Assembly (NCBI GenBank): GCA_916610825.1
Contig: OU744448.1
Span: forward strand, 21,059,032 to 21,123,031
Direction: 5' to 3'
DNA from: Haliclystus octoradiatus
Taxonomy: Eukaryota; Cnidaria; Staurozoa; Stauromedusae; Haliclystidae
Length of the DNA stretch: 64,000 nucleotides
The notes under the pieces were generated by a model that was not told the origin of the DNA, ran no database searches, and saw nothing but the letters and a program-made list of their open reading frames with translations. The position numbers and the translations under genes were made by a program. Shown here one piece after another: positions 14,113 to 64,000 of this stretch (positions are counted from its first letter, which is position 1; every line of letters starts with the position of its first letter).

Positions 14113-14377
14113 ATAGAAACTTTGAGTGATCGTTTAATGAAATGACTTTTGACGGTGTTCAGATCGGCTAATTGTGATGACGTTAAGTAAAAGGAAATTT
14201 AAGAGAGTACAGGTTTGTCGTAAGAGAGAGAGAGAGAACATGTTTGTCGCTATCCAGTATGGAATGATTTTTTTCTGTGATATATTGTTCATTTTTCAAT
14301 TCTACGTTCGAGAAACCAATCCCACTGATACTAATTCGCTGCTATATAAGATACCAATAGTTTGACATAAAATGTAT

Positions 14378-15290
14378 AATATCTCAATTAAACTTTTTTT
14401 TATTTTCTTTTTTTTTGTTGTTGCTGAAAAATTCAATATAATTTATTTCTTCATAAATATATATATATATACATTCAATAAAATGTTAACTTTAAACAGA
14501 ACTATGTGTCATTTAAAAATTTGCCTAATATACCCCTATTCTAATTTATCTAATTAATCTATTTCAAAATTGTTCTCAACGTCATCATTAATAAAGGTAA
14601 CCCATGATACTATTAGCATTCCCTCTTTGTACTGCCACTGAAATCCTCGCTTTTAAATATTTTCCTGCATTTTTTTTCTGTGACCTGTGTAGATACTCTC
14701 AACCTTGAAGATAGCTGCTTTAAGAACAACGTAGCAGCCGATCCGTACGAGCCCATCGTCTCTATGGCTACGGGGATGAAGATGTACTTTGTTGACAGCT
14801 GCCTATACTTTGTGATCTTCTTTGCTTCGGCGTTTTCAGCAGCTGCTCCTGCTGTGAGAGATGTTCTTTCGATATGGCTGGGAGCAAGAGTATCAGGACA
14901 TGTGAAGTCCCATAAAGCTGAGCTACTTTTTTCCCAAGGAATTAGGGTGATTCCATCAGGTCTTTTAAAATCTGTTCTTGCTAGGCCTTGAGGCTCAAGT
15001 TTACAAGGGACGCTTGCAGTGCACAAAGCCTTCTTGATGATGACTTTTACTTCATGGTGCCTTGCATATCGTCCAGAACTCTTTTTACATGAAAGGCCGT
15101 GGACTCCTTGTTGATCTACTAGTTGGCCGCATTTTACATATATGGGATTGTACCGTCTCCAGTCCCAATCGGAATGAAATTATTATGCGTAGCTGATTGT
15201 TATTAAGCATTAAACCCCCTGTTAAACCCATGGCGGGGTGACGGGAGTGCATTGAGCCATGCCCCAGATAAAATTAAATCTCTCAATTAA
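14378..15290 (-). pseudogene. Truncated RLE-type LINE, A2 copy, frameshifted beside the gap
   Basis: Same insertion as 1057-1967. Here the endonuclease-region frame is open only from 15026 down to 14613. Single-base insertions break the upstream part: an extra T in the T-run near 15131-15134 and an extra G near 15235. Both lie within 300 bp of the N gap, so assembly error is as likely as mutation. Confidence 0.65.
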
Positions 15291-21800: not shown

Positions 21801-22065
21801 ATAGAAACTTTGAGTGATCGTTTAATGAAATGACTTTTGACGGTGTTCAGATCGGCTAATTGTGATGACGTTAAGTAAAAGGAAATTTAAGAGAGTACAG
21901 GTTTGTCGTAAGAGAGAGAGAGAGAACATGTTTGTCGCTATCCAGTATGGAATGATTTTTTTCTGTGATATATTGTTCATTTTTCAATTCTACGTTCGAG
22001 AAACCAATCCCACTGATACTAATTCGCTGCTATATAAGATACCAATAGTTTGACATAAAATGTAT

Positions 22066-22976
22066 AATATCTCAATTAAACTTTTTTTTATTTTCTTTTT
22101 TTTTGTTGTTGCTGAAAAATTCAATATAATTTATTTCTTCATAAATATATATATATATACATTCAATAAAATGTTAACTTTAAACAGAACTATGTGTCAT
22201 TTAAAAATTTGCCTAATATACCCCTATTCTAATTTATCTAATTAATCTATTTCAAAATTGTTCTCAACGTCATCATTAATAAAGGTAACCCATGATACTA
22301 TTAGCATTCCCTCTTTGTACTGCCACTGAAATCCTCGCTTTTAAATATTTTCCTGCATTTTTTTTCTGTGACCTGTGTAGATACTCTCAACCTTGAAGAT
22401 AGCTGCTTTAAGAACAACGTAGCAGCCGATCCGTACGAGCCCATCGTCTCTATGGCTACGGGGATGAAGATGTACTTTGTTGACAGCTGCCTATACTTTG
22501 TGATCTTCTTTGCTTCGGCGTTTTCAGCAGCTGCTCCTGCTGTGAGAGATGTTCTTTCGATATGGCTGGGAGCAAGAGTATCAGGACATGTGAAGTCCCA
22601 TAAAGCTGAGCTACTTTTTTCCCAAGGAATTAGGGTGATTCCATCAGGTCTTTTAAAATCTGTTCTTGCTAGGCCTTGAGGCTCAAGTTTACAAGGGACG
22701 CTTGCAGTGCACAAAGCCTTCTTGATGATGACTTTTACTTCATGGTGCCTTGCATATCGTCCAGAACTCTTTTTACATGAAAGGCCGTGGACTCCTTGTT
22801 GATCTACTAGTTGGCCGCATTTACATATATGGGATTGTACCGTCTCCAGTCCCAATCGGAATGAAATTATTATGCGTAGCTGATTGTTATTAAGCATTAA
22901 ACCCCCTGTTAAACCCATGGCGGGTGACGGGAGTGCATTGAGCCATGCCCCAGATAAAATTAAATCTCTCAATTAA
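22066..22976 (-). pseudogene. Truncated RLE-type LINE, A3 copy
   Basis: Same insertion and target duplications as 1057-1967. The 223-codon endonuclease-region frame (22301-22972) is open and identical to A1. Confidence 0.75.
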
Positions 22977-37500: not shown

Positions 37501-38484
37501 ATGTTGAACAAGTCATCGTTTACAAACGACATGTTTTCTATTATTGATTATAATTGCAAAAGCACGAGGGAATTTTTCGACTTGGATGTGAATAGATCAA
37601 TTACAGATTATATATTTGGTGTTATTGGCGTAATCCTGATAGTCCCTACGGCATTATCTAATATTCTTGTTATTATATCTATTCTGAAAATACGCTCTCT
37701 TCGTTCAGCGGAAAATTCCATTCTTATTATTTTAGCAGCTAGCGATGCATGTACTGGAGTATTCCTGTTACCTTTGTTTTCCTATTTACATTTAAAGGAC
37801 GCGTATAATAATTGTCTTATAGTTCTCTCGTCGCAAATTGTTGCCTTTACATTATTAACATTCACTGTAATTGGTATGATTTTAGTAGCAGTTGATCGTT
37901 ATATAGCTATATTTTATCCATTCAAATACATCAAGTATACGAATACTAGATCTTTAACAATTATAGCGAGTTCATCATTTGGATCTTCGCTTTTACTAAG
38001 CATTTCAGCAATATTCACAAAGGATTACGAATTATTAATTAGAACATATACATTTTTACTGACATTCATGGTGTGCTGGAGTGCATTTGTTCATATAAAA
38101 TCACTTCGACTATCAAGAAAGATTCGTGAACAAGATCAAACTGCTCAAAAGAGCAAGGAAAAACATTTGAGAGATAAAAAAATTACTCATATGATATTTA
38201 TTATTTTGATCATCATGTTGATTTGTTACATTCCCTATATTGTTATATGTGCATTGTTTAATAGTACGAAACAAGGACACGGGAATCCAACACTGCAGAA
38301 GATTGCTATGGCAAGCGCGATATTACTCTTATCAAATTCACTAATCAATCCATTTATTTACTGTTGGAAAATCAGAAGAATTAGAGGGACAATTATGAGG
38401 ATTCTCAGACAGAGGAATTTACGCATACGTCATATTGTGACCTCGAATACAGATCGAAATAGGAATGGAATTAAAATAAATTGA
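37501..38484 (+). CDS. Class A GPCR, B3 copy
   Basis: This 327-residue receptor differs from the B1/B2 protein by Phe146 to Tyr at the start of TM4, Thr324 to Ile, and loss of the last two residues, because a CGA codon has become TGA. All signature residues are kept (D82, C105, DRY, CYIP, NPFIY). I count three nucleotide differences in the coding region. The copy lies beyond the copia element and lacks the downstream MITE, so it separated from B1/B2 before that insertion. Confidence 0.92.
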   Translation: MLNKSSFTNDMFSIIDYNCKSTREFFDLDVNRSITDYIFGVIGVILIVPTALSNILVIISILKIRSLRSAENSILIILAASDACTGVFLLPLFSYLHLKDAYNNCLIVLSSQIVAFTLLTFTVIGMILVAVDRYIAIFYPFKYIKYTNTRSLTIIASSSFGSSLLLSISAIFTKDYELLIRTYTFLLTFMVCWSAFVHIKSLRLSRKIREQDQTAQKSKEKHLRDKKITHMIFIILIIMLICYIPYIVICALFNSTKQGHGNPTLQKIAMASAILLLSNSLINPFIYCWKIRRIRGTIMRILRQRNLRIRHIVTSNTDRNRNGIKIN

Positions 38485-39484
38485 TATTGATATTCTTTTA
38501 GAGATATAGATTAACAAATCCAATATAAATTGTATGCTTTTATGTAGAATCATCGCTGTACAGTATTTAACACCTGCGATGAAGCAAAAATGTCAATATC
38601 ATTCAAAATATAAGTGAATTTGATCGGACTGTATTGAATGATTTAATATCATTGCTTTTTTATCTTGCTTTTATGTCAAATAAGACAACATATTTTAATT
38701 TGATAAAAATGATCCCCGCCAATTTCATATATATTACGACTTTATCAAGACTATCCGTTATATAGATAGATTACCCATGATAATTGAATGCGAACCATTC
38801 CATTTCTCTTTTATATTCTCTCCCAGACAATAAACTATATACCTCAAACGTGGCTGAATCTTCTATCCCGTATCTCTATACTTTTTGTAGTCCTCACTTT
38901 CCTTTCAATCCATAACTAACATTACAACGTAGTTGTGATTCCTTTTTATAAATTTGTAGTTAATCCTCTTTGTAGGAAAAGCTTATACAAGCAAACTATA
39001 TACAGTCTCATTATTGTGTTTATACTCTTTATCAATTAATTTATTATAACATAATATATAATATGCCAGGTTTAGGATTTTTAAAACGATTTTTAATTAT
39101 GAGGTATACAAAGGCGTAAAAGTGATCGGTTGGGAAGATGACTTCATGACACTTTAACTAATTTGCTATACACCCATTCAGGGTAGACTTTCAGTTGGCT
39201 CTAAAGGTAACATTTCAGAATTCAGACTATTTACATATATATGGTTGATAAAAATAAGAATAACAGATTGATTTATTTATTTATTTACCGGACGGCTTTT
39301 TTTTCTGCTTTCTTTGTCGCAAGAGGGAGAGAGAGAGCGAGAGAACATTTTTGTCGCTACATGATGTTTTTATGTGATATATTATGCATTTTTCAATTCT
39401 ACGTTCGAGACACCAATCCCACTGATACTATAATTGGCTGCTATATAAGATAACAATAAAGACGTAGTTTGACATAAAATGTAT
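38485..39484. other. B3 3' flank; ancestral, less-inserted version
   Basis: Collinear with B1 downstream sequence but without the MITE (empty site at 38928-38935), without the 12604-12800 segment (junction near 39170), and without the long TTA array and the 133-codon ORF. After a short TTTA run (about 39270-39285) it continues into the equivalent of A-block 880-1067. No gene is seen. Confidence 0.7.
38928..38935. other. Empty target site of the B1/B2 MITE
   Basis: A single CGTAGTTG with the same flanks as in B1 and B2, where it is duplicated around the MITE. Confidence 0.95.
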
Positions 39485-39497
39485 AATATCTCAATTA

Positions 39498-39676
39498 GTA
39501 ATATCAAGGTACTTAATTATGTTGTCTTTGCTGTTTCAATAGTGCTCGATGCCATAAATGCAGAGCTGTTTAATAATTAATAAACGAATTCACAGATTAA
39601 ATTGCCTGATGATCGCCTTGGCGTGAAACTAATAGTAGCAAATATGAATGTCTGATTTTTTCGTTTATTAATTATT
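39498..39676 (+). mobile_element. 179-bp insertion with 13-bp target duplication and inverted-repeat core
   Basis: The insert is flanked by AATATCTCAATTA at 39485-39497 and 39677-39689. Inside, arms TTAATAATTAATAAACGAA (about 39570-39588) and its inverse (about 39660-39678) enclose a hammerhead-like motif. It has no coding capacity. The same target point carries a LINE in the A blocks. Confidence 0.75.
39602..39641 (+). ncRNA. Candidate type I hammerhead ribozyme
   Basis: The + strand reads stem I UUGC (39602-39605), core CUGAUGA (39606-39612), stem II CGC/GCG closing a CUUG tetraloop (39614-39623), GAAA (39625-39628), stem III ACU/AGU with loop AAU (39628-39636), A17 at 39637 and GCAA (39638-39641) pairing with stem I. 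Every invariant core position is met. The weak points are a U-U opposition at the base of stem II and short stems. Self-cleavage is predicted after A39637. Confidence 0.55.
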
Positions 39677-39689
39677 AATATCTCAATTA

Positions 39690-40694: not shown

Positions 40695-40930
40695 GATTGA
40701 AGGTGTGACTGTCATTGAAGCATGGTTCTATGTCTGGGAAAAAGTGAAGACTTTATAATATTCTGATAATTTTGCTATGGATTTGATGGCTGATTTGTGT
40801 ATTTACATGGCAAAAGCATCCGGGAGTGCAGCCATAGAATGCAGCCATAGAATGTATATTGATTATTTTTCATTGTGATGATATCTTGGCATGGCATGCA
40901 GTATTAAAATCGTTGCAAAAAGTATCAGAG

Positions 40931-41878
40931 ATGTCTAACAATTCATCGTTTGTAGAACAGCTGCTTTCTGTCACTGAATATAATTGCAAAACTACTCGTC
41001 AGTTTCTTGGTTTACAAATAAGTGGATTATATCCAGGCTATTTGTTTGGTTTTATTGCGATATCTATGATAATACCAACGCTATTATTGAATATTCTAGT
41101 CATATTCTCCATTGTAAAAATACGTAATTCACTTCATGCATCGGCGAATTCAATTTTGATTATCTTGGCATGTAGCGATGCTGGCACTGGAATATTATTG
41201 TTGCCAGTATTTTGCTATTTGCATTTTAGTAATTATACTATTTGTGGCGTTGTTCTCTTATTATCAATTGTGGCCTTTACATTGTTAACAATAACTGTCA
41301 TTGGTATGATTCTAGTTACAGTTGACCGCTATTTAGCTATATTTCATCCCTTTAAATATATCGATTTTACAACTACAAGATCTATGAAGATCATGATTAC
41401 TTCATCATCTGGATTTTCACTTTCTTTGGGTATTGCGTCAATATTCACAAAAGAGTTTGAATTATTCACTAATACTTATGCATTTTTAATTGCATGTATG
41501 ATATGCTGGAGCATATTTGTGCATATAAAATCATTTCGATTATCAAGAAAAATTTGTAACAAGGATCTAAATGCAAGGAGAACTAAAGAAAAGGAACTAA
41601 GAGATAAAGTGATGACATATACAATAATATTAATATTGATTATTATGTTAATTTGCTATCTACCTTATGTTATTGTCTGTGTACTATTTAACACTACAAA
41701 GCAAGGACACGGGAATCCAATCATACAACACGCTGCTAACATTAGCTTATTACTGGTCATGTCAAATTCACTTTTGAATCCAATCATTTATTGTTGGCGA
41801 ATCAGAAGAATTAGAAGAACCGTTTTGAGGATTATTCGGCAATGGAAGGAATTTATATGGGACTTAAGATGCCTCTAG
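40931..41878 (+). CDS. Class A GPCR paralogue
   Basis: This 315-residue intronless receptor is clearly related to but diverged from the B-block receptors. I place the start at MSNNSSF (40931) because it lines up with the Asn-rich N-termini of the paralogues; the frame is open upstream to 40859. N54, D83, C105, DRY 132-134, CYLP 242-245 and NPIIY 283-287 are present. The short second extracellular loop (TKEFELFTN) lacks Cys. The C-terminal tail is short and ends soon after the basic helix 8. The upstream 200 bp include the end of unrelated repeat sequence, so the promoter is unclear. Confidence 0.9.
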   Translation: MSNNSSFVEQLLSVTEYNCKTTRQFLGLQISGLYPGYLFGFIAISMIIPTLLLNILVIFSIVKIRNSLHASANSILIILACSDAGTGILLLPVFCYLHFSNYTICGVVLLLSIVAFTLLTITVIGMILVTVDRYLAIFHPFKYIDFTTTRSMKIMITSSSGFSLSLGIASIFTKEFELFTNTYAFLIACMICWSIFVHIKSFRLSRKICNKDLNARRTKEKELRDKVMTYTIILILIIMLICYLPYVIVCVLFNTTKQGHGNPIIQHAANISLLLVMSNSLLNPIIYCWRIRRIRRTVLRIIRQWKEFIWDLRCL

Positions 41879-42367: not shown

Positions 42368-45300
42368 TTATTGTGTTACAATATCATATATCATATCTAT
42401 GTCGAAGTTGTCTTTTAGAAACAGATAAGCGCTAGCTGCATCAGCAGGATCCACAGTGTCAATAGAAGAGAGATTTCGTTCACATTCTATTCGAAAACCC
42501 TCATCCAAAAAGTTGTTGTCATTGTCAAGTACGCCTGATAAACCAGCTACCTCGTTGAGATCTTCTTCCGTAACAAGAACACCACAATTTTCTCCGCCAT
42601 ATTTGTGCGGACGGGCGTAGATATAATCCGGAACTCCTGATGGTAGATCTTTGTTTTTCTGTCTACCAACACGATGACTGTTCCAAACAGACAGTCTGAA
42701 AATTTCCAATTCTTTCTGCAGGATAGGGATGTAAACAAAAGCAAGCAAATTCCTACAAAATGAGAAATCTCCAAGACAACATATTTGTAATATACATAGA
42801 CACTATTCTTTATGCACCAGTGATTTCACAAAACGGCCCCGGCTCATGGTCTGGGACCCCCTGGAAAATGTCTGGCACTATATAACGCGTCATACCAATC
42901 CACATTAAAAAAAATGTCAGCATCTTCATTGCATGGGTACTCGGATTCTGGTTCTGATATTGACACTACTAGACCCACTTCTAGAAAGTGCACGGTGAAA
43001 GTCCAGAAATTTAAATTTTTTTTAATTTAAAACTATTTTACAATGGCACCAATAATGTCAGCCAGAAAATCGTTCTGGAGTGACATGATATTCACTTTTT
43101 TGAATCATTACTATACTATTCAGAACGTACACATGAAGAAATTTGTTTTTTTCTTTTTTTTAATATAATATATCAATATATTTCAAAACAAATTTTTATG
43201 AAAACATACAAAGAAGAGGTTAATTTCTTATTTTATTGATATTCACTTGATATGGTGTTGATGTGGGTCCATCATTAGTTGATGGATCCTACCACATCCA
43301 TTATATTGGCATCTTGTAGGGTGTTTGTGAATGGTGTTTACTTGATTGCTTTTGAACCCCGAATGCACAAAATTGCAGATCGAACAAGGGTGAAGGACAA
43401 TTTGTTTCTGAGCCAATTATTGCTTCTTTGATACAATAGTAAACGAAAATGGGATTGGAATCTATAGAAATATCTGACATACCTATCTATTTGGCCACTG
43501 GAGTCATAATCACCATCATCTAAGAGTTTAGACAACTGATGTTTGAAGAGTCTCTCTATTATCTCTAAGAGCTCCCTCCACCATCTTTCAATGTTATTTT
43601 GAGTAGATGGTCCGTGCATGACTGTATCCACCGCATCATTCCAATCAACAGTATTTGCATGGAGATAACAATGTATGATTGCCAATTTACCTGTTTTCAT
43701 TTCCCTGTCTATTCTGAGCTTTGCTGAAAGTACTGCAGAAGAAGAATACATAAATTTAAATTTCAAATGTATTATTAACTACTCTGGATAGATTTTCGTA
43801 CGCCTAGTAACAGGTTGAGGATGGTGAGAAAGGGAATATGGGTTAGTTGGGTAATCTGCACTTATATAATAAGTTCTACGTCTAAAACTAGAATCGCTAG
43901 AACTGAGACGAGTCAAAGCAGACCTGATTATATGCTATATTATAAAATATCACAGACCTACGGTAGACTTGAAGGTAAATACCTTATCTTTACATTATGA
44001 TAATTCTAAATATACGCTGCGTACGCGGACATATATTTAAACTCAAATCAAGCAATTCACCACGCTTTGAGTCCAGCAAGCATCGATTTTCCTTTCGTAC
44101 CATCCAATGGTGGAATTCATTAGAAGAACATATTGTAGAGTCAAAAGTATTAACGGCATTTAATCATCATTTAAACAGAGCATGCATTTCATCTTTTTGC
44201 AAATTGTATTAACAAGCCGCTCATAATTAATATAAGTAATAAAGATAAAAATAATGATCATGTAAAATTTAAATATATACTCAATATATGTTTTGTGTCG
44301 GTCCGTTACTCTGAGTTTCGCGTAGAGACGCTCTTCAGACGGTTTATTCATAATCCGTTTTATAAACTTTAAATTTTTTATTATTTTCATTTTGCCAAAT
44401 GTTCTTTCGTTCTTAGCAACTGTGAAAGGGGCTGTGAAGAGAAGCTTGTATGCTTCGTAGATGGTAGAAAACAGACGCTTAAGACTAAACGCTATCTCAC
44501 AACACTCTTTGATGTTGAGTTGAGGATTGGATCTAGATTTAAAACATGGATTCTAAATATTTCCATTTCAGCGTTGAAATAATCAATATCAAATGAACGG
44601 CTTATCGGGAATAGATTGAGAATTTGTTGTTCATTTAATCACTCAATTCATTATTACACAGCGGAGGCTCTAGCAAAGTTACCAGGGGCTTTATCTTCTC
44701 CAAGCATTTAACAACATTTTCGGAATACTCGCGTATTAACGAGTAAAATCGTTTGATAAAATTTGAAAAATGAGTAAAAATATCTGTTTTTTCCCGACAA
44801 AGTATACTGTTTCGTGGTCAAAAGTGCCCGGATTTTTTCGGGGAAAATGGATTGGGGGGTGTGACATCCCCCATACCCCCGGAAGTTAAGTGCCGTGTTT
44901 AGATTAGACTATCATATGTCTATTCTACTGACTAGTGTATAAACATAAAAGTACCCTTAACCATGCTTTGACAATATGAAATACTATATTCTTAATCGAC
45001 AATAATCAGCCAGGAAATCCTTCTGTAAATTTTACCATGTATCTACTTCTTACGAATGACGATTGAAAACAATATATATCTATATATCTACAATATCTTT
45101 AGTTTCTTGTTCCTTCGATGTTTTCGGAATTTTCTGTGCGATCTTTGTAAGTAAATGTTCAATAGAATAATAGATACAGCCGAACAGGTCTGCATTGATT
45201 TGTTGCTTGCTGAAACAGCAAGAATTAATAATCGGGCAACAGAGAACAAAAGTCTCATTAATTTTATTGCTTAAAGGGTTCCACCAATCAGTATGTTATT

Positions 45301-61539: not shown

Positions 61540-64000
61540 AACAGATTTAGCCCAAATTAATCTAGCAATCCAGAATAGTTCACAAAATATCATCACGAAG
61601 ATCCACAATGCTTTTTGCTCATAAAATCAAAACTTTTCAAAATTATTTAACAAAACTACTCATTGTAGTTAGCCTATGTGAAATAGATAATATAACTTAT
61701 GTTAATAAATTTAATGATCAGCTGAAGTTCTAATTATGCTGAGGGTACTGATTTTGTTAATAACTACACGATAATTCACAATGTTATTTGCTAATAAATT
61801 CAAAAATTCTCAATATTGTTTGACAAAATTACTCATGGTAGTTAGTTTAGCTTAAGTAAAATAGAAAATATGATTTATTTTGAAAAAATTAAATAATTAG
61901 GTGAAGTTCCAATTATGCTAAGGGTACTGATTTTGTTAATATCAACGCGATAATTCACAATGTTATTTGCTAATAAATTCGAAAATTCTCAATATTGTTT
62001 GACAAAATTACTCATGGTAGTTAGTTTAGCTTAAGTGAAATAGAAAACATGATTTATTTTGAAAAAATTAAATATTTATCTGAAATTCCAATTATGCTAA
62101 GGGTAGGCCTACTGATTTTGTTAATATCAACACGATAATTCACAATGCTATTTGCTAATAAATATAAAAATTCTCAACATTATTCAGCGAAATTGCTTAT
62201 GGTAGTTAGTTTAGCCTAGGTGAAATAGATAATATGATTGAATTTGAAAAAATTTAATGATTAGCTGAAATTCCAATTATGTTAAGGGTATCGATTCAGT
62301 TAATATCAACACAACAATTCAAACTGCTATTTGCTAATAAACTCAAAGCTTCTCAATATTATTTGACAAAATTACTCATGGCAGTTAGTTTAGCTTATGT
62401 GAAATAGAAAATGTGATTTATTTTGAAAATATTCAATAATTAGCTGAAATTCCAATTATGCTAAGGGTACTGATTTTGTAAATATCAACACGATAATTCA
62501 CAATGCTATTTGCTAATAAATTCAAAGCTTCTCAATATTATTTGACAAAATTACTCATGGCAGTTAGTTTAGCTTATGTGAAATAGATAATATGATTTAT
62601 TTTGAAAAAATTCAATAATTAGCTGGAATTCCAATTATGGTAAGGGTACTGATTTTGTTAATATCATCACGATAATTCACAATGCTAATTGCTAATAAAT
62701 TCAAAGCTTCTCAACATTATTCAGCGAAACTGCTTATGGTAGTTAGTTTAGCCTATGTGAAATAGATTATATGGTTGATGTTGAAAAAATTTAATGATTA
62801 GCTGAAATTCCAATTATGTTAAGGGTATCAATTCAGTTAATATCAACAGGATAATTCAAAATGCTATTTACTAATAAATTCAAAGCTTCTCAATATTATT
62901 TGACAAAATTACTCATGGTAGTTAGTTTACCTTATGTGAAATAGAAAATATGATTTATTTTGAAAAAATTAAATAATTAGCTGAAATTCCAATTATGCTA
63001 AGGTACTGATTTTGTGAATATCAACATAATAATTCACAATGCTATTTGCTAATAAATTCAAAATTTCTTAACATTATTCAGCGAAATTGCTTATGGTAGT
63101 TAGTTTAGCGTAGGTGAAATAGATAATATGATTGATGTTGAAAAAATTTAATGATTACTTGAAATTCCAATTATGTTAAGGGTATCGATTTAGTTAATAT
63201 CAACAGGATAATTCACACTGCTAATTGCTAATAAATTCAAAGCTTCTCTATATTATTTGACAAAATTACTCATGGTAGTTAGTTTAGCTTATGTGAAATA
63301 GAAAATGTGATTTATTTTGAAAATATTCAATAATTAGCTGAAATTCCAATTATGCTAAGGGTACTGATTTTGTAAATATCAACACGATAATTCACAATGC
63401 TATTTGCTAATAAATTCAAAGCTTCTCAATATTATTTGACATAATTACTCATGGCAGTTAGTTTAGCTTATGTGAAATAGATAATATGATTTATTTTGAA
63501 AAAATTCAATAATTAGCTGGAATTCCAATTATGGTAAGGGTACTGATTTTGTTAATATCATCATGATAATTCACAATGCTAATTGCTAATAAATTCAAAG
63601 CTTCTCAACATTATTCAGCAAAACTGCTTATGGTAGTTAGTTTAGCCTATGTGAAATAGATTATATGGTTGATGTTGAAAAAATTTAATGATTAGCTGAA
63701 ATTCCAATTATGTTAAGGGTATCAATTCAGTTAAAATCAACAGGATAATTCAAAATGCTATTTACTAATAAATTCAAAGCTTCTCAATATTATTTGACAA
63801 AATTACTCATGGTAATTAGTTTAGCTTATGTGAAATAGAAAATATGATTTATTTTGAAAAAATTAAATAATTAGCTGAAATTCCAATTATGCTAAGGTAC
63901 TGGTTTTGTGAATATCAACACAATAATTCACAATGCTATTTGCTAATAAATTCAAAATTTCTCAACATTATTCAGCGAAATTGCTTATGGTAGTTAGTTT
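61540..64000. repeat. Satellite of about 180-bp monomers with a 5-monomer higher-order repeat
   Basis: The block AATTCCAATTATG recurs at about 61906, 62086, 62270, 62449, 62628, 62808, 62986, 63165, 63345, 63524, 63704 and 63882, a period of 179-184 bp. Variant markers repeat with a period of five monomers (about 896 bp), for example GGTAAGGG at 62637 and 63533, and TTGTGAAT at about 63010 and 63905. The first monomers (61540-61900) are diverged, as is usual at an array edge. The array continues past the window. Confidence 0.93.

Follow-up and report, generated by a model that had tools for sequence, protein, structure and literature searches.

A 179-bp insert at positions 39498..39676 of a 64,000-nucleotide stretch of the Haliclystus octoradiatus genome (contig OU744448.1; the whole stretch is referred to here as the window) combines an inverted repeat with a hammerhead ribozyme fold, which raises the question of where such a composite comes from and by what reaction it was built. 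A first-pass annotation, made from the letters of the DNA, had regarded it as a tiny mobile DNA that recalls retrozymes and Penelope-associated hammerheads and may form a new non-autonomous family. The reading preferred here is that it is probably a short insertion of a Penelope-like element (PLE), in which both cut strands of the target primed the copying of sense RNA, one at a site termed A and the other at a site termed B. In kind the insert is ordinary, a PLE insertion with a hammerhead, and it is the mechanism that is informative. PLEs constitute a third class of eukaryotic retroelements. The passages available from two papers on them, of 2013 and 2024, both defer the steps of insertion to future experiments (PMC3846280, PMC11167929). 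A genome with many leader-only copies records this reaction directly, and the record here comprises a pair of start sites, as a rule one for each strand, arms that overlap and meet head-to-head, and a duplication of ~14 bp.

The insert consists of two oppositely oriented pieces of one PLE leader sequence, which meet head-to-head. Positions in the leader are numbered on its uninterrupted sense strand, S, with site B at 0, end A at +72 and the predicted hammerhead cut between -40 and -39; A and B are two fixed positions of the element, 72 nt apart, with B upstream of A. In uninterrupted copies the order on S is a promoter-like TATA, TCACAG, the hammerhead, site B (CGTTTATTAATTATTA), a 72-nt tail and end A (GATATTAC). 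The layout at the locus is as follows.

39484..39497, no strand: left target-site duplication TAATATCTCAATTA, a 14-bp direct repeat with 39676-39689
39498..39588, minus strand: A arm, antisense leader, from the fixed distal end A (S +72, ...GATATTAC) upstream to S -17
39570..39588, no strand: left arm of the inverted repeat (19 bp), S -17 to about 0, present in both arms
39589..39677, plus strand: B arm, sense leader, beginning at S -88 and reaching the fixed proximal end B (S 0, CGTTTATTAATTATTA)
39660..39678, no strand: right arm of the inverted repeat (19 bp)
39676..39689, no strand: right target-site duplication TAATATCTCAATTA, a 14-bp direct repeat with 39484-39497

The final two bases of the B arm (39589-39677) are common to this arm and the right duplication, and the right half of the insert is identical (100% over 90 nt) to a PLE copy in locus L049. 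The 14-bp duplication around the composite both begins and ends with TA. The 179-bp insert with its inverted-repeat shape had been recognised at first pass and is present; the repeat is 19 bp long (39570-39588 / 39660-39678) and exists because the A arm and the B arm both copied the same stretch of leader. The target duplication had also been seen, although its length was given as 13 bp, one ambiguous base having been omitted, and is 14 bp.

Additional sites of the 14-mer TAATATCTCAATTA lie at 1056, 14377 and 22065, in paralogous loci of the window that match the left flank through to the end of the duplication and then continue with ~0.9 kb of different sequence. A clean empty site was found neither among these paralogous loci nor by a genome search with both flanks joined, which gave 7 matches from 6 candidates, 2 of them being the insert's own sides and 5 the left flank only. 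At 1056-1955, 14377-15278 and 22065-22964, the ~0.9 kb of other sequence stands exactly at the insert's point and is followed by a similar 14-mer, so that these sequences possibly represent a second, independent insertion into the same target. Other features of the window include a duplicated array (1-38935) whose long self-matches include one of 7.5 kb at 99.5% identity and another of 6.4 kb at 99.3%, intronless receptor-like frames, for example 37501-38484 and 40859-41878, which we take to be rhodopsin-type, and a satellite-like tandem repeat (61585-64000), whose self-matches give a period of roughly 178 bp.

The B arm harbours a type I hammerhead fold, identified by direct reading, a motif scan and a count of paired changes, with the following elements.

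39593..39654, plus strand: type I hammerhead fold
39602-39605 / 39638-39641, plus strand: inner block of stem I, TTGC / GCAA
39606-39612, plus strand: CTGATGA core
39614-39616 / 39621-39623, plus strand: stem II, capped by a CTTG tetraloop and mismatched (U-U) at its base
39625-39628, plus strand: GAAA core
A39628-T39636, C39629-G39635 and T39630-A39634, plus strand: stem III, with the loop AAT
39637..39638, plus strand: predicted self-cleavage site GUA^GC, after A39637, placed by its position in the fold

The outer block of stem I is CAGA/TCTG. A complete type I hammerhead had been claimed by the first-pass annotation, and all of its elements are indeed in place, with the predicted cut after A39637; the conserved core, three helices, UH cleavage site and open stem I of this type are all present. 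When the window was scanned for the complete motif, defined by the core, a stem II with 3 or more pairs, stem III, UH and a 4-bp stem I, two places were found, this insert and 44338 (minus strand), and in the control a match occurred in 1 of 400 random 64-kb windows of equal dinucleotide content. The second fold (44338-44295, minus strand) comprises CTGAAGA, a 4-bp stem II, GAAA and GTA^ACGG, and gave no match to an Rfam hammerhead. It lies within a 76-aa frame (44160-44390, minus strand), presumably related to the C-terminus of a hAT transposase, and is probably a coincidence, though such matches are rare in random windows.

The possibility that the fold in the insert is likewise a chance resemblance, without ribozyme activity, has to be weighed. 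A covariance-model search and the conservation of stems in further copies had been proposed at first pass as checks. The former failed to support the fold: it matched no Rfam hammerhead family at E up to 10, and the Rfam gathering score was reached nowhere in the 64-kb window. Stem III is weak, the base of stem II is mismatched, the majority of copied RNA was uncut at the site (see below) and the same scan found the second, probably coincidental fold. Against these points stand the rarity of the motif at random and the second check, in which the stems proved to be kept in divergent copies. Across 16 such copies, 91.3% of stem cells are paired (the outer stem I block was not counted) and four pairs are altered on both sides; none of 500 shuffles equalled the observed paired-change cells or covariation score, a result that is not a probability, as the 16 rows were hand-picked for divergence from 114 distinct sequences and represent few independent lineages. 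Further pair types were not above the shuffles (391/500). Published accounts, in the parts accessible, also report hammerheads in all available PLE sequences (PMC6155905), describe PLE hammerheads as minimal and often without helix III and tertiary contacts (PMC6155905, PMC7761336) and give an axolotl hammerhead a U-U at the same place, the base of stem II (PMC7229834). A chance fold is therefore regarded as unlikely, and a putative ribozyme of the PLE type is the reading retained. Divergent hammerhead families were also observed at other loci (L037, 216-347; L002, 1287-1335; L082, 976-1101), with compensated changes of C-G to U-A and G-C to A-U; in L037 and L082, two divergent hammerheads lie side by side in opposite orientation.

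The uninterrupted copies of the leader point to its source. They lie downstream of a PLE-like reverse transcriptase/endonuclease frame, and the association with Penelope hammerheads that had been suggested from the insert itself stands, as far as it was tested. Frames with GLYRDDGL and YIGLTEGTFKDRY end directly upstream of the leader, and stop-free frames upstream of S contain GLYRDDGL together with an endonuclease-like stretch, YIGLTEGTFKDRYSQH...TELSKHIW. We take GLYRDDGL / YRDD to be the reverse-transcriptase motif, and YIG...R...H...E to be the endonuclease motif, in the frames beside the leader. Neither piece was recognised by Pfam, and a PDB sequence search with the reverse-transcriptase piece gave no match. 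Genome-wide, this piece has at least 150 matches (924 candidates), which are mostly relatives at 60-66% protein identity belonging to other families than the insert's; 56 of the 150 lie in open frames of at least 700 aa, and the open frames of many relatives measure 721-740 aa. Among the 150 scored matches, 9 of 14 same-strand neighbours are spaced 2516-2525 bp apart and form tandem arrays, a layout that has been described for PLEs (PMC11167929, in the part available). Tandem or partial-tandem copies that form pseudo-LTRs are thus present, mostly among the relatives at 60-66% protein identity, the pseudo-LTR carries a hammerhead, and the target duplication lies in AT-rich DNA (14 bp at the insert, at least 10 bp in 26/52 copies). 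The source of the insert thus looks like a PLE, judged from motifs described in the literature, tandem architecture, hammerhead and tail. Frames of 721, 734, 736 and 740 aa, with equal or near-equal scores, were also seen in tandem and head-to-head arrays, which suggests that several PLE families have recently been active in this genome.

Relatives of the insert itself are numerous, with at least 63 matches in the 262-Mb genome (40 scored of 1700 candidates), and a 41-nt word from its left half has 159 exact genome matches, compared with 0 for the control; no relatives were found among phages or viral contigs. When 38 regions were compared side by side, the outer ends proved to be fixed and the middle variable. 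The junctions were analysed at 118 loci, of which 8 were set aside because they repeated a place already counted or were segmental duplicates and 15 had no alignment reaching S +68, leaving 97 A-arm records from 95 loci; three different places that share a TA-repeat flank (L060, L062 and L122) were counted separately. Two-armed A/B copies number 52. The tail served to select 17 of them, resemblance to the insert 23 and resemblance to the uninterrupted leader 12; arm length is biased in the two resemblance-based sets. With same-flank copies merged, the combination of A-arm end, B-arm start and gap is unique in 52/52, and therefore each copy was built separately and the 179-bp unit is not what multiplies. 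An exact duplication of at least 10 bp flanks 26 of the 52 (14 bp in 11 of them), compared with 29/2000 mismatched pairings, and TA precedes end A in 88 of the 97 A-arm records. The gap at the junction is 25 nt or less in 43/52 and extra bases are often held there; the widest gaps, 258 and 336 nt (L107 and L108), may separate unrelated neighbours. Many copies hold the leader only.

The two outer ends are used in a regular manner. The site-B word has 187 exact occurrences in the genome, 103 of which continue into the tail. In the first 100 of these 187 places, 16 head-to-head pairs are present, comprising 14 A/B, one A/A and one B/B (P = 0.002 for 14/16, compared with independent choice, for which about half would be A/B), and the optional tail is found on one arm only in 14 of the 16. 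The tail-selected set similarly contains 17 A/B pairs versus one A/A insertion, L123. Other copies, such as L093 and L086, consist of an A arm without a partner, and the duplication comes immediately after it. By the criteria used, 45 of the 97 A-arm records have no B arm, some partners being truncated, distant or beyond the fetched stretch, and double priming is therefore not obligatory. Double priming on sense RNA predicts head-to-head pairs only, and among neighbouring reverse-transcriptase matches within 6 kb (150 scored matches, mostly relatives at 60-66% protein identity) there are 22 head-to-head, 14 tandem and one tail-to-tail arrangements. In 29 of the 52 two-armed copies, this insert included, the upstream reach of the B arm exceeds that of the A arm by more than 5 nt, whilst the A arm carries a tail that the B arm lacks; 18 of these 29 belong to the 23 copies chosen by similarity to the insert, and the corresponding figure in the tail-selected set is 7/17. 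When gaps of 200 nt or more are omitted, these proportions become 27/50 and 5/15, respectively.

These features allow a reaction to be proposed. The PLE protein, probably as a dimer, would introduce two cuts ~14 bp apart into an AT-rich target, one per strand, and leave a 3' end in TA at each. Sense PLE RNA would then be reverse-transcribed from each of these 3' ends as primer, with A as the start site for one and B for the other, and both copies would run upstream, often to the 5' end of the RNA (about S -85), after which the two cDNA ends would be joined to generate the inverted repeat. A arms usually extend past site B and therefore either two RNAs or strand displacement must be assumed. 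Long products would carry coding sequence and short ones, such as this insert, the leader only. The hammerhead at the very 5' end of the RNA would cut off a leader of roughly 46 nt, an activity predicted from its fold. A search of titles and abstract openings, with most subscription journals outside its coverage, found no earlier proposal of such A/B double priming for Penelope.

Other origins of the head-to-head shape must be compared with this scheme. Snap-back self-priming, in which a single cDNA (or an antisense RNA) folds back and copies itself to yield a head-to-head palindrome, was proposed in 2013 for bdelloid Penelope from palindromes at head-to-head junctions (PMC3846280, in the passages available), and 23 of the 52 copies, those with arms equal within 5 nt or with a longer A arm, are compatible with either this route or double priming. 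However, self-priming needs one arm to have been copied from its partner, and the 29 copies (27/50 without the widest gaps) in which B has sequence that A lacks, and A has the tail that B lacks, therefore cannot be snap-backs; moreover, the A arm and the B arm end at separate fixed start sites. We accordingly consider snap-back an improbable source of the composites. Even less credit is given to a chance head-to-head arrangement, whether of two independent insertions or of a single insertion reshuffled afterwards by recombination or an assembly error. Chance neighbours do arise in genomes with many copies, and some apparent partner arms are hundreds of bases distant (L107 and L108), but a single 14-bp duplication encloses the whole composite, the great majority of junctions have the short gaps noted above and the excess of head-to-head over tail-to-tail neighbours (22 versus 1) is not expected from chance.

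The remaining explanation is that proposed by the first-pass annotation, a new small non-autonomous family, MITE-like or retrozyme-like, which multiplies as a 179-bp unit, perhaps via circular RNA. Many copies do measure 160-190 bp, have constant outer ends and are flanked by a duplication, and this size falls within the 170-400 nt given for animal retrozymes in the accessible text of PMC7229834. This explanation is nevertheless very unlikely, as the outer ends are internal positions of the PLE leader and every one of the 52 two-armed copies has its own junction, a finding with which the notion of a tiny mobile DNA has to be abandoned. The retrozyme likeness fares no better, since there is a single hammerhead in a head-to-head composite and tandem units are absent. 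As specific candidates, a MITE or other DNA transposon was rejected on the grounds that the left repeat arm begins 72 nt inside the insert and that arm length differs between copies, and an animal retrozyme on the grounds that, in place of tandem hammerhead units, there are one hammerhead and two head-to-head halves. Double priming by a PLE is thus the explanation carried forward.

The upstream ends of the arms bear on the RNA that was copied. Arm ends accumulate at S -85 to -82 (17/97 A arms and 20/60 partner arms), and at this pile-up an initiator-like TCACAG is located about 30 nt after TATATATATA. The simplest reading of the pile-up is a transcription start, in which case the hammerhead would be formed by the very first nucleotides of the transcript. 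Around the predicted cleavage site, in an interval picked after the data had been seen (S -41..-37), tail-selected A-arm ends number 4/22 with duplicates removed, compared with 1.1 expected (P = 0.026), and the ends of all arms 10/66, compared with 3.4 expected (P = 0.003). Genome-wide exact counts, in which mutations are not separated from true ends, give 8 stops at -38, 20 at -39 (the predicted cut) and 12 at -40, with 252 arms running through; 6 of the 20 stops at -39 fall in one stretch of C1 (29.47-29.53 Mb), and three places retrieved from that stretch, L099-L101, share flanks. As these genome-wide counts have no clear peak, a signature of hammerhead run-off was rejected and cleavage in vivo is not claimed. 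Most copied templates were uncut at the predicted hammerhead site, in agreement with the available text of PMC11167929, in which cleavage is dispensable for insertion in vitro.

Beyond this locus, we favour on balance, and with less assurance than for the insert itself, the view that double target-primed reverse transcription is the main insertion route of endonuclease-containing Penelope elements, A and B being fixed sites used one per strand because a dimer offers one site to each. One reaction would then account for the optional tail known from publications, for pseudo-LTRs inverted head-to-head and for scattered hammerhead copies that comprise the leader only. The question of insertion can be reduced to a simple test, namely inspection of both strands of one in-vitro product. 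Dispersed hammerhead motifs in animal genomes are mentioned in the portion of PMC7761336 available, and part of these may be leader-only PLE insertions, rather than separate elements.

Among known systems, twin priming of human L1 also uses a pair of target ends as primers on a single type of RNA, with an inversion as the outcome. In L1 the position of the second site varies and overlap between the arms is rare, whereas the present composites have two fixed sites and, in most cases, overlapping arms. Animal non-LTR retrozymes resemble the insert as small hammerhead-bearing insertions of similar size but, in the accessible part of their description, consist of tandem units expressed as circular RNA (PMC7229834), in contrast to the single hammerhead, inverted composite and copy-specific junction found here. 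The endonuclease-containing Penelope elements described from Adineta vaga (Arkhipova et al. 2013, PMC3846280) share several features with the present element: the passages available describe head-to-head inverted pseudo-LTRs, a TATA box with an initiator, target duplications of 8-10 bp and an optional 31-bp tail on one inverted pseudo-LTR. Self-priming, perhaps on an antisense template, was proposed there for the head-to-head copies (PMC3846280), whereas the arms here are not mutual copies in 29/52 and many copies are leader-only.

A further close counterpart is PAc, the Poseidon PLE of Anolis carolinensis (Frangieh et al. 2024, PMC11167929). According to the accessible text, it likewise has a hammerhead near the start of the pseudo-LTR/ORF and an AT-rich target; in vitro, its protein cleaves the two target strands and extends each of them, and copying starts at two adjacent internal sites of the RNA, which are the ends of the genomic tail. 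The tail is 72 nt here, compared with 30-40 bp there, and the cuts follow TA here, compared with an ATT motif there. The available portions of that report show neither head-to-head composites nor a pairing rule for the start sites, and in a term search the words 'duplication' and 'inversion' were absent from its main text (PMC11167929). By analogy, sites A and B are the natural counterparts of the two internal start sites of the anole element, and what the present data add is that both are usually used within a single two-armed insertion, one per strand.
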